The translations under genes and the position numbers were made by a program. Below, piece by piece: positions 1-14,205 of a stretch of DNA of 64,000 bases (positions are counted from its first letter, which is position 1; every line of letters begins with the position of its first letter). The DNA is taken from positions 2,294,001-2,358,000 of the forward strand of contig NZ_CP065410.1 in NCBI RefSeq assembly GCF_020544405.1. The letters are read 5' to 3'. This DNA is from Pseudomonas sp. IAC-BECa141. GTDB taxonomy: Bacteria > Pseudomonadota > Gammaproteobacteria > Pseudomonadales > Pseudomonadaceae. The notes below the pieces were generated by a model. The model was not told where the DNA came from. It ran no database searches and worked only from the letters and a program-made list of their open reading frames with translations.

Positions 1-857
1 ACTTGATAGAGCGCCAGCGTCGAGTTGACCGACTCGAACTGGTCGGCGTAGATGGCGTTGGTGTTGCCGACCTGGGTGACGGCGGCGGTGTTGTTTTCGC
101 CATAGCTCTGGTCGACCACGGTTTCGTTGCTGTCGCCGTGCTGGTTGACGGTGGCCTGGCTGGCCAGTTGCGAGTCTTGCCAGATTTCGCTGCCGTTGAG
201 GTTGCCGAACTGGTTGATGGTGATGTTGCCGCCGGTGCCGTTGCGCTGGTCGCCATAGGCGTAGTTGGTTTCACCGGCCTGGTTGATGCCGATCTGGCCG
301 CCGTTGTGCAGTACTTGTTCGGCGGTGCCGTAGTTGGCGGTGCCGTATTGGGTAATCACCGAGCTGTTGCCGGTGCCTTCGTACAGTTGCTCGATGTTGG
401 CTTCGTTGCTGTCGCCGAACTGGAAGGTCTTGCCTTCGCTGCCGTTCTGCGAGTCCTGGTAGACGAACGAGAAGTTGCCGGTGCCTTGCTGTTGTTGCAG
501 GGCCTGGTTGCCGGCGCCGAAACCGAGGGACTGGCTGGCGTGGGCGGTGTTGAAGGCGCCGGTCTGTTGTTGGGTGATGGTGCTGTTGTCTTCATACAGC
601 TGTTCGGCGTAACCGGCGTTGTAATCGCCGACGGCGTCCTGAGTGATGACGCTGGTGGCGGTGTCTTGCACGGCGGCGGCGTTGTTGCCCTGGCCCAGTT
701 GGGTCTGGGTCGCGGTGCTGAACGGGGCCTGGGTCTGCTTCACATCAGCGATGTTGGCGGTGCCGAGCTGGCTCTGGGTGGAAATGCTGTCGTCGGCCAT
801 GGCCTGGGCACTGATCATGACCAGGATGGCGGCGGTGAGGGGCGTCAGTTTGAACAT
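1..857 (-). CDS. csgA: Curlin-repeat amyloid subunit (CsgA-like), C-terminus beyond window
   Basis: This is the N-terminal 285 codons of a secreted curlin-type protein; the gene runs off the left edge. It starts MFKLTPLTAA with a signal peptide ending around AQAMA. The rest is a succession of roughly 20-residue units rich in Q, N, G and S, with patterns such as QLGTAN, QTGAFN, QYGTAN and QVGNTN, typical of curlin strand-loop-strand repeats that stack into amyloid. It is longer than the roughly 150-aa E. coli CsgA. Curli subunits are exported through CsgG and polymerise outside the cell. It lies 26 bp behind the CsgB-like gene on the same strand, so csgBA order is inferred. The Csg secretion genes are not in the window and may lie further left. 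Confidence 0.85.
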   Translation of the reverse strand, partial: MFKLTPLTAAILVMISAQAMADDSISTQSQLGTANIADVKQTQAPFSTATQTQLGQGNNAAAVQDTATSVITQDAVGDYNAGYAEQLYEDNSTITQQQTGAFNTAHASQSLGFGAGNQALQQQQGTGNFSFVYQDSQNGSEGKTFQFGDSNEANIEQLYEGTGNSSVITQYGTANYGTAEQVLHNGGQIGINQAGETNYAYGDQRNGTGGNITINQFGNLNGSEIWQDSQLASQATVNQHGDSNETVVDQSYGENNTAAVTQVGNTNAIYADQFESVNSTLALYQ

Positions 858-883
858 GATGAACTCTCCGATGATTGCAGTGC

Positions 884-1348
884 TTAGCGATATTGCTTGA
901 CCGAAACGCTCATGCCGTTGCCCGACTGGGTCACGGCGCTTTGCAGCCCCGTGCCCGCCTGCTCGATGCTGGCGTCGTTGTTGTTGCCGTTTTGCGAAAT
1001 CTGCGCACGGTTGTGGCTGCCGGTTTGCGTGATGGACGCGGCGTTGCCGGAGCCGTTTTGGGTGATCAAGGCCATCAGGTCGCTGCCTTGTTGCAGGATG
1101 TACGCCTCCTGATTGCTGCCCGACTGCACGATTCTGCCCAGCAGCGACTGACCGTTCTGTGAGAGCAGGGAAAGGTTGACCTGGCCGTTCTGGTCGATCA
1201 GGGCTTGCTGGCCCACGGGGGGCGGCAGTTCGCCGAGATCGGCGCTGTTGGGCGCCAGGTCATCGTTTTCCATCAGGTCGTCGGCGCGCACGCCCGCACT
1301 GACGCACAGGGCGAGCAGGCAAAGCAGGGCGGCGGTCGGCGTGTTCAT
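884..1348 (-). CDS. csgB: Curlin minor subunit / nucleator (CsgB-like)
   Basis: A 154-aa secreted protein with a signal peptide (MNTPTAALLCLLALCVSAGVRA) and then curlin repeats: SQNGQS, QSGSNQ, QQGSDL, QNGSGNAA, QTGSHNRA, QNGNNNDA, QAGTGL and QSGNGM. In the curli family CsgB nucleates CsgA fibres at the cell surface. The C-terminus ends VKQYR; Arg/Lys-rich ends are common in nucleators. The start at 1348 was chosen because the signal peptide begins there; the longer in-frame start at 1411 would add non-signal sequence. The csgA-like gene follows 26 bp downstream. Confidence 0.85.
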   Translation of the reverse strand: MNTPTAALLCLLALCVSAGVRADDLMENDDLAPNSADLGELPPPVGQQALIDQNGQVNLSLLSQNGQSLLGRIVQSGSNQEAYILQQGSDLMALITQNGSGNAASITQTGSHNRAQISQNGNNNDASIEQAGTGLQSAVTQSGNGMSVSVKQYR

Positions 1349-12447: not shown

Positions 12448-13846
12448 CGAACTGCTGGCCGAGAATATTCAGACCTACCTGGAGCGCAAAGACTTCGAGG
12501 TGACGGTCTGCCACTCGGCCGAGGACGCGCTGACGCAGCTGGAAAGCTTCATGCCGGACATCGTCCTGACCGACAACTCGCTGCCGGGCATGAGCGGTCA
12601 CGATCTGATCCAGAAGCTGCGCATCAGCGCGCCGGAACTGAAAGTGATCATGATGACCGGTTACGGCAACGTCGAAGACGCGGTGGTCGCCATGAAGGAG
12701 GGCGCCTTTCATTACGTCACCAAACCGGTCGCGCTGCCGGAACTCAAACTGCTGCTGGACAAGGCCCTGGCCACCGAACGGATGGAGCGCACGCTGTCGT
12801 TCTACCAGGAGCGCGAAGCGCAGAAATCCGGCGTGCAGGCGCTGATCGGCGAGTCGTCGCCGATGCAGTACCTGAAAAACACCATCGGCCAGTTGCTCGA
12901 CGCCGAGCGGCGCATGGCCAACACCGACCTGCCGCCGGTACTGGTGGAAGGTGAGACCGGTACCGGCAAGGAACTGGTGGCCCGCGCGCTGCACTTCGAC
13001 GGTCCGCGCAGCAAAGGCCCGTTCGTTGAATTCAACTGTGCGTCGATTCCGTCCAACCTGGTGGAATCAGAACTGTTCGGCCACGAGAAAGGCGCATTCA
13101 CCGACGCCAAGGATCGCCGGGTCGGACTGGTGGAAGCGGCGGACGGCGGCACCTTGTTCCTTGACGAGATCGGCGAAATGGACCTGCTGTTGCAGGCCAA
13201 GCTGCTCAAACTGCTCGAGGATCGGACCATCCGCCGGGTCGGCTCGGTGAAGGAGCGCAAGGTCAACCTGCGGGTGATCAGCGCCACCAATTGCAACCTT
13301 GAGCAGATGGTCCAGCAGGGCAAGTTTCGCCGTGATCTGTTTTTCCGTTTGCGGATCATCTCGATCAAGGTGCCGCGTCTGTATGCCCGTGGCGAAGACA
13401 TCCTGCTACTGGCCCGGCACTTCCTCGCCAGCCACGGCAAGCGCTACGGCAAACCGAACCTGCACTTCAGCGATCAGGCCGAGCAACTGCTGCTCAGTTA
13501 CACCTGGCCGGGCAATGTGCGCGAATTGCGCAACATGCTCGAACAGACCGTGTTGCTGGCGCCGAACGACACCATCGCCGCGCATCAACTGAATGTCTGC
13601 ATGAGTCTGTGCGATGACCTGCCACCGCAGCATCAGCACGAAGTGCAGCATTTCGAACCACGTCCGGCGAGCAACACCGAGTCGATGAACCTGCCGGAAG
13701 TCGAACGCGACATGGTGCGCAAGATGCTCGACAAGACCGACTGGAACGTCACCAAATCGGCGCGCCTGTTGGGCCTGAGCCGCGACATGCTGCGCTACCG
13801 CATCGAAAAACTCGGCCTGGCCCGTCCGGACAAGCGTCAGTGGTAA
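12416..13846 (+). CDS. mnxR: NtrC-family sigma54-dependent response regulator, MnxR-like
   Basis: A 476-aa regulator with a receiver domain (1-120, phospho-acceptor D53 in LTDNSLPG) and a sigma54 activation AAA+ domain (about 140-375) carrying GETGTGKE, the GAFTDA loop and GGTLFLDEIGEM. A C-terminal Fis-type helix-turn-helix follows (NVTKSARLLGLSRDMLRYRI). The start has a GGGAGGGG site 3-4 nt upstream and overlaps the kinase end. It probably activates the -24/-12 promoter at 6900-6915. By analogy with P. putida GB-1 it would govern Mn(II) oxidation; whether it also controls the divergent secreted-protein and curlin genes is an open inference. Confidence 0.85.
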   Translation: MEHSILLVEDDELLAENIQTYLERKDFEVTVCHSAEDALTQLESFMPDIVLTDNSLPGMSGHDLIQKLRISAPELKVIMMTGYGNVEDAVVAMKEGAFHYVTKPVALPELKLLLDKALATERMERTLSFYQEREAQKSGVQALIGESSPMQYLKNTIGQLLDAERRMANTDLPPVLVEGETGTGKELVARALHFDGPRSKGPFVEFNCASIPSNLVESELFGHEKGAFTDAKDRRVGLVEAADGGTLFLDEIGEMDLLLQAKLLKLLEDRTIRRVGSVKERKVNLRVISATNCNLEQMVQQGKFRRDLFFRLRIISIKVPRLYARGEDILLLARHFLASHGKRYGKPNLHFSDQAEQLLLSYTWPGNVRELRNMLEQTVLLAPNDTIAAHQLNVCMSLCDDLPPQHQHEVQHFEPRPASNTESMNLPEVERDMVRKMLDKTDWNVTKSARLLGLSRDMLRYRIEKLGLARPDKRQW

Positions 13847-14205
13847 ACGGCGTTGCTGCGTGGATTCGGCGGGCTCAGGCATTCGAGCACGCACGTCGGG
13901 TCCAGCACTTCGTCGTTGACGTAAATGCCGCGCTCGGCATCGTAGGTGCGGATGAACACCCGCACCGTCGCATCGGCCACTGTGGGCAGTTGCGAGTCAT
14001 GGAACACGTGGCGATCCGGGATGACGATGAAATCCTGCGGCGGCGTGTCATCGAACGGCCGGGGTGGCTGAGCGGACAGCGACGGCGGAGCGGGGTGGGC
14101 GAAAGGCTGGTCGGAACCGTAGTAATTGAAGTTGCTGTCCAGCGCCTGAGCCTGGGTGGCGGCGAGTAGACAAACGGACAGCAGCAATCGACTGAACATT
14201 CCCAT
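13837..14205 (-). CDS. Small secreted hypothetical protein
   Basis: A 122-aa protein, convergent with and overlapping the regulator gene by 10 bp. A signal peptide (MGMFSRLLLSVCLLAATQAQA) is followed by a short proline-rich stretch and a beta-rich domain (DFIVIPDRHVF, ADATVRVFIRTYDA, GIYVNDEVLD) with two cysteines in PTCVLECL. The start at 14205 was chosen because the signal peptide begins there. No family was recognised. A TTTCCCCA half-site like those at 5224 and 6808 occurs in its upstream region near 14227. Confidence 0.65.
   Translation of the reverse strand: MGMFSRLLLSVCLLAATQAQALDSNFNYYGSDQPFAHPAPPSLSAQPPRPFDDTPPQDFIVIPDRHVFHDSQLPTVADATVRVFIRTYDAERGIYVNDEVLDPTCVLECLSPPNPRSNAVYH

Follow-up and report, generated by a model that had tools for sequence, protein, structure and literature searches.

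Curli genes are linked to a manganese-oxidation island in Pseudomonas, with shared control predicted

In Pseudomonas sp. IAC-BECa141, genes for curli and for two paralogous secreted proteins (here S1 and S2) are linked to an island of manganese (Mn)-oxidation genes. The stretch of 64,000 nucleotides that was analysed (the window) begins at position 2,294,001 of a genome that is a single contig of 6.22 Mb, and the start of the window is the right end of this island, which covers about 41 kb from -27207 to 14205; all positions are window coordinates, and negative values lie left of the window. A preliminary description of positions 1 to 14,205 had named curlin genes, paralogous secreted proteins, a small secreted protein and a Mnx-type signalling and oxidase cluster, and every one of these was recovered from open reading frames and family searches. 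The mnxG operon, a type II secretion (T2SS) cluster and csgEFG lie further left, in DNA that the description did not cover. The case is built at the level of sequence, on gene content, co-occurrence, layout, common promoter elements and the fusion of one protein module. We put at roughly two in three the probability that the products of the island form a single surface apparatus for oxidizing Mn(II) under the control of MnxR, in which a layer of curli, S1 and S2 would hold the oxidases and the oxide.

The arrangement is strongly conserved. A scan for the multicopper oxidase gene mcoA reported 588 relatives, and among the best 80 of these the order mnxS1-mcoA-sco-mnxS2-mnxR occurs at 65 loci; the closest named mcoA loci belong to P. 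pharyngis, P. paraglycinae and P. koreensis. The genes csgA-csgB-S1-S2 lie just upstream on the opposite strand at 58 of the 65, and the other seven lie on contigs that stop short of that position. The 15 loci left among the 80 are mcoA copies without mnxR or curlins nearby, three of which adjoin matches to an mnxS-type kinase and sco. The gene for the small secreted protein is found in 47 of the 58 full loci, and for at least two of the 11 misses the contig ends near mnxR.

Co-occurrence was surveyed in 99 Pseudomonas genomes, with E-value limits (1e-150 for MnxR, 1e-50 for McoA, 1e-100 for MnxG and 1e-220 for GspE) that leave remote relatives uncounted. S2, MnxR and the island GspE are present in an identical set of 35 genomes. 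MnxG occurs in 34, that is, in the same set minus G021 (genomes and loci are cited by working numbers), and CsgF in 36, comprising the 34 MnxG genomes plus G020 and G068. McoA-type proteins are found in 34 genomes, namely 33 of the 35 (one, in G087, as a broken piece) and, as a fragment, G022. Each pair tested (S2, CsgF, McoA and MnxR, and MnxG with CsgF) gave a Fisher p below 1e-18 with kinship ignored. Kinship was allowed for by independent pairs on an rpoB tree, averaged over 200 pairings (98 of the 99 genomes; G075 has no rpoB match, those of G034 and G085 are partial and that of G076 is split). The two traits changed in the same direction in 13.0 of 13 pairs for MnxG/CsgF, 12 of 12 for MnxR/S2, 11.7 of 12 for MnxR/CsgF, 12 of 13 for MnxG/S2 and 13 of 15 for CsgF/MnxG. 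The co-location pointed out in the preliminary description is thus well beyond chance.

The distances between the parts reveal which of them belong together most closely. Wherever mnxG and csgF share a contig they are at most 21 kb apart (32/32 genomes). S2 and mnxR lie within 30 kb in 29/35, far apart in two (107 kb, and 1.3 Mb in G045) and on different contigs in four; csgF and S2 lie within 30 kb in 23 genomes and 33-108 kb apart in four (G015, G057, G072 and G096). From S2 to the best McoA match the distance is at most 30 kb in 18/35 and 0.2-1.4 Mb in three; the match is on another contig in 12, and there is none in two. Assembly breaks probably account for the separate contigs in G002 and G047, but they are not the whole cause of McoA separation, because S2 and mnxR share a contig in eight of those 12 genomes. 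Curli follows MnxG and MnxR, and McoA is the loosest member. The tie of curli to an oxidase that had been proposed earlier therefore holds best for MnxG and not for the McoA of the window; regular separation of the curlin and secreted-protein genes from the oxidase, named at the same time as counting against the idea, is partly found for McoA. In one genome (G049, L202) S2, S1 and csgA are decaying and the mcoA of the mnx locus is a remnant, while the matches to mnxG, csgEFG and mnxS/R there still cover the greater part of these genes.

From its left end, the island carries gspF and gspG (minus strand), a transglycosylase gene and the mnxG operon, which encodes a 1947-residue mnxG-type protein, a beta-propeller protein, two Sco1 proteins, a cytochrome c/periplasmic-binding protein and SurA. 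The T2SS-csgEFG run (plus strand) comprises a receiver-domain response regulator, GspE, PilN-/GspM-like proteins with two unmatched neighbours, a secretin, pseudopilins, csgE, csgF and csgG. All three Csg proteins were identified by family searches; the names PilM and GspC within the run are given by position only, neither protein matching Pfam. CsgD was not among the island proteins that were family-scanned, a scan that some island open reading frames fall outside. To the right follow a DUF6124/toxin-antitoxin stretch, csgA-csgB-S1-S2 (minus strand) and mnxS1-mcoA-sco-mnxS2-mnxR (plus strand), the last with the two sensor kinases and one sigma54-dependent response regulator of a Mnx two-component set. 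The stretch between csgG and csgA (-2303 to -782) holds DUF6124 and a ParE/PaaA2-type toxin-antitoxin pair, and its content differs among related loci. The features within the window are as follows.

1..857, continuing to -594, minus strand: csgA-like major curlin, 483 residues (Curlin_rpt 9e-24; 18 Q/N-x-G-x-x-N repeat matches)
884..1348, minus strand: csgB-like minor curlin (open reading frame 884-1411, likely start 1348 by our reading; Curlin_rpt 3.8e-21)
1442..3715, minus strand: S1, secreted, 757 residues, with a domain common to S2, two Big_9/cadherin-like domains and a C-terminal module
3712..5058, minus strand: S2, secreted, 448 residues, paralogue of the N-terminal part of S1
5118..5133, minus strand: sigma54-like -24/-12 site of S2-S1-csgB-csgA, TGGTATGGAAGTTGTA
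5225..5238, unstranded: dyad CCCCAGCATTGGGG, putative upstream activating site for MnxR
5306..5317, plus strand: conserved element GGGCTATAACCC, some 40 bp upstream of mnxS1 and putatively its promoter, of housekeeping type (TATAA core in 53/56 intergenic regions)
5346..6794, plus strand: mnxS1-type sensor histidine kinase, named by synteny with the published locus (PMC11409713)
6811..6824, unstranded: imperfect dyad CCCCAGCAGTGGGT upstream of mcoA
6900..6915, plus strand: sigma54-like site of mcoA, TGGCGAGGTAATTGCA
6939..9761, plus strand: mcoA-type multicopper oxidase, 940 residues, with four copper-ligand motifs and oxidase domains
9758..10849, plus strand: Sco1/SenC and cytochrome c protein
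10954..12447, plus strand: mnxS2-type sensor histidine kinase
12416..13846, plus strand: mnxR-type sigma54-dependent response regulator (receiver, sigma54 activator and Fis helix-turn-helix (HTH) domains)
13837..14205, minus strand: small secreted protein, 122 residues, island member by position only

Promoter sequences point to common control of these units. Sigma54-like sites were scored with a weight matrix set by hand from the consensus; the scores are relative, with random windows as control. The sites score 16.0 before mnxG (TGGCATGCGGATTGCT), 13.9 before mcoA, 11.8 before the S2 operon and 10.9 before the T2SS-csgEFG run (TGGCATGAAGTGTGCG). A site of at least 11 precedes S2 in 46/58 loci and mcoA in 72/80, compared with 7.8% and 3.5%, respectively, of random windows of equal length, and all 58 loci have a site of at least 9 located 66-85 bp before S2. 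No enrichment was seen before csgA, csgB, S1, mnxS1 or mnxS2, which fits a single promoter before S2.

Alignment of the region between S2 and mnxS1 also brings out a dyad, CCCC-N6-GGGG, that is exact in 53/56 intergenic regions (C and G runs also give matches with a spacer of 7 in 34/56 and of 2 in 26/56). The exact dyad occurs at 32 places genome-wide. The island holds four of these, one upstream of mnxG, two upstream of the T2SS-csgEFG run and one in the region that separates S2 from mnxS1. A Poisson estimate for at least four in 41.4 kb is 7e-5, for a motif itself derived from two of those sites. At mcoA the dyad is imperfect (CCCC-N6-GGGT). Gaps from dyad to sigma54-like site are 99 bp at mnxG, 91 bp at S2, 75 bp at mcoA, and 75 and 117 bp at T2SS-csgEFG. 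Across the 58 loci a dyad stands 60-160 bp above the S2 site in 55 (88-91 bp in 50 and 77-78 bp in five), compared with 1.2% of shuffled 300-bp upstream regions. Out of sample, both elements precede S2, mnxG and T2SS-csgEFG in G045, in which mnxR is so distant from S2, and they precede S2 in G057. The exact dyad is absent from the csg loci fetched from G020 and G068, which lack MnxR, and from the second csg locus of G087. Genome-wide, the combined pattern has a median of 4 in the 35 genomes with MnxR and of 2 in the 64 without (p 1.2e-7, kinship uncorrected), whereas a reversed-pattern control gave 1 and 1 (p 0.29); medians are used since the counts include G005, which is inflated by a repeated element. 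A strict integration host factor (IHF) motif was found at neither the S2 nor the mcoA promoter of this window.

Because the plan of dyad plus sigma54-like site is common to mnxG and, imperfectly, mcoA, control of the curli and S1/S2 operons by MnxR is predicted, and shared control appears likely. The joint switching suggested in the preliminary description is retained to this extent, as a prediction for the S2-S1-csgB-csgA operon with its own conserved promoter. It does not extend to the small secreted protein, which in this genome has a best sigma54-like score of 2.9 and no exact dyad; among relatives 16/51 score at least 11.

Several further sites carry one or both elements. A perfect CCCCAAATTTGGGG dyad lies between divergent genes at window position 34225, where the best sigma54-like score is 9.2. 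At 5,629,847 of G000 (L225:9847) dyad and sigma54-like site precede two neighbouring genes, the first for a CCP_MauG/RoxA-like di-haem protein and the next for a GGDEF protein (Pfam assignments from G000); this neighbourhood with the dyad recurs in G019, G047, G053 and G084, and G055 has a like pattern among the matches listed. The CCP_MauG/RoxA-like gene is thus a predicted further MnxR target, which would provide a link to c-di-GMP. Three dyads clustered near 2.93 Mb (L190, G000 2,920,001-2,936,000) have no sigma54-like site above 8.5 and were taken as chance. There, a sigma54-type regulator gene adjoins genes for secreted proteins, one of them small and rich in repeats and another peptidase-like, and the locus looks Fap-like. 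G087 has a second mnxG, 74% identical, which together with a propeller gene is divergent from a different csgE-F-A-G-B operon (L195, C4:270001-290000); this mnxG has a strong sigma54-like site (16.0), whereas sites directed towards the csg operon score no higher than 6.6.

S1 and S2 are 53% identical across S2 residues 12-447. S2 matches no family of Pfam or NCBIfam at E 0.01, its best PDB sequence match has E 0.077, and it was found in 0/397 other Pseudomonadota genomes, a sample that lists ten other Pseudomonas and in which few candidates were scored per genome. AlphaFold models are almost all beta (pLDDT 71 and pTM 0.48 for S2; 75 and 0.42 for S1). In structure comparison the Big_9 part of the S1 model is akin to bacterial adhesin and cadherin domains, and S1 looks adhesin-like; both proteins differ from Big/cadherin-type adhesins (MpAFP, FrhA, intimin D00-D0) in an N-terminal domain that matches no family and whose fold was barely compared. 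An Ig-type assignment for S2 was set aside, the PDB fold search giving mainly such domains at a query-normalised TM of at most 0.25 (50 matches listed), with the N-terminal part barely covered. The last ~95 residues of S1 are 41-46% identical to a C-terminal extension of McoA paralogues and have no further match at E 0.01 in this genome. This extension is present in 9/10 mcoA copies at 74-78% identity (L082 is without it), and most such paralogues are open frames of 1008-1260 residues. A separate S1-like gene 3' of the mcoA paralogues was considered and dropped, translation having resolved it into the extension. The fusion of the S1 module to McoA paralogues hints that S1 and McoA may act at one place.

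Collectively, these observations suggest the following scheme. MnxS1 and MnxS2 would activate MnxR, with mnxS1 probably expressed from the housekeeping-type promoter. MnxR would bind the dyads 75-99 bp upstream of the sigma54 promoters and turn on four putatively co-transcribed units, mnxG-propeller-sco-sco-cyt-surA, mcoA-sco, response regulator-T2SS-csgEFG and S2-S1-csgB-csgA. The oxidases would be exported through the T2SS and the curlins through CsgG, S1 and S2 would be adhesin-like surface proteins, and the C-terminal module of S1 might be a docking part. We hypothesise that the curli serve as a scaffold which, with S1 and S2, would hold oxidases and Mn oxide on the cell.

A number of observations weigh against a single MnxR-controlled apparatus. 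On the rpoB tree MnxG and McoA agree in only 10.7 of 13 pairs. G060 and G062 have no McoA match yet keep curlins, S1 and S2 (G062 keeps everything else, and G060 has one sensor kinase), and G021 retains S1, S2, GspE and MnxR in the absence of mnxG, csgF and any csgAB beside S1, so that the parts are separable. G020 and G068 have a different curli and no MnxR, and second copies of CsgF occur in G042, G060 and G087. With regard to the promoters, the -12 element of the S2 site reads TTGT here, with an imperfect GC, and TTGC in many relatives. The dyad motif was derived from the S2, mnxG and mcoA promoters, which consequently weigh less as tests; seven of the 28 dyads outside the island have a sigma54-like score of at least 10 within 250 bp (three at least 12), and mcoA copies outside the mnx locus often have no dyad within 260 bp. 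As for the proteins, the S1 and S2 models are of only middling confidence, and the Pfam match of MnxG to Cu-oxidase_2 (E 9.6e-4, 19.4 bits) falls just under the cut-off of 20.4, so that it is named from its length and its place in the gene order. The island secretin (about -7847 to -6001) reads as two overlapping frames, through either a frameshift or a sequencing error; at the same place G060 has a single open frame of 753 residues.

The same promoter evidence would be equally expected if MnxR ran curli for ordinary adhesion or aggregation in stationary phase, rather than for holding Mn oxide in particular. P. putida GB-1 does aggregate, and the oxidase promoters fire in stationary phase (PMC11930936). 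We consider this unlikely, since all but two of the 36 genomes with curli machinery also have MnxG, and the second mnxG of G087, beside a different csg operon, hints at a specific partnership. A still less probable account is that curli and S genes have merely been co-inherited with mnx as a niche island, with neither regulation nor purpose in common. Tight clustering in most genomes, a patchy distribution (13-16 changes per trait on the tree) and the loss of both mnxG and csgF from G021, as though in one stretch, would suit such hitch-hiking. However, co-occurrence persists where the pieces are distant, as described above for csgF and S2 in four genomes and for S2 and mnxR in G045, and the S2 and T2SS-csgEFG promoters retain their dyads and sigma54-like sites, that of S2 amid fast-changing intergenic sequence. 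Finally, it is very improbable that another Fis-type HTH regulator binds the dyad: dyads with sigma54-like sites do occur outside the island, and further NtrC-type regulator genes exist (such as that at L190), but genomes with MnxR have more of the combined pattern, no sigma54 activator other than MnxR was seen among the family-scanned island genes, and the pattern is present at mnxG and mcoA, two genes reported to require MnxS/R (PMC11930936).

The island resembles several known systems. It has in common with E. coli curli the CsgA/CsgB curlin repeats and CsgE, CsgF and CsgG; here, by contrast, CsgA is long, csgD is missing among the scanned genes, the promoter is of sigma54/MnxR type, T2SS genes precede csgEFG on the same strand and S1/S2 lie alongside csgBA. 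In 2003 de Vrind reportedly tied a Gsp-related second secretion cluster to the Mn-oxidizing factor of P. putida GB-1. Here too a second secretion cluster, of Gsp/Pil-like type, goes with Mn-oxidation genes, whereas the joint layout with csgEFG was not found described in the portion of the literature covered. The order of the mnxG operon is as published for the Mnx genes of P. putida GB-1 and Pseudomonas sp. MS-1/DSV-1, and that of mnxS1-mcoA-sco-mnxS2-mnxR, with the mnxG operon close by, as published for MS-1/DSV-1 (PMC11409713). The sigma54-type mnxG and mcoA promoters likewise agree, those described being of predicted IHF-sigma54 type and firing only with Mn (PMC11930936). Curli, T2SS-csgEFG and S1/S2 are, unlike here, not described as part of the Mnx system in the available portions of these sources, and 'curl', 'amyloid' and 'secretion' are absent from the main text of PMC11409713. 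Clusters of csgEFG and csgAB have been reported in P. putida genomes (PMC3056050), and no csgD was found near Pseudomonas csg operons except in P. stutzeri, other regulators being suspected (Dueholm 2012; PMC3521004). A search of the available literature found no link between curli and Mn oxidation, and where both words occur no connection is drawn in the portions seen; a search for transcriptome studies likewise gave nothing on curli with Mn oxidation among the matches listed. On this search, what would be new is the link of curli to the Mn-oxidation island, the order mnxS1-mcoA-sco-mnxS2-mnxR having been published.

The control of curli in Pseudomonas and the reason for Mn oxidation are both open questions, which the present finding ties together. 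It is possible, although we would not go as far as even odds, that most Pseudomonas curli are a dedicated part of Mn oxidation, an amyloid-plus-adhesin scaffold with joint T2SS/curli export under MnxR, that would be a docking place for oxidases (by way of the S1-type C-terminal module in the case of some paralogues) and a surface for the deposition of Mn oxide. The finding proposes how a biomineral might stay on the cell, which would be useful for filters that remove Mn and for materials made of biogenic oxide.

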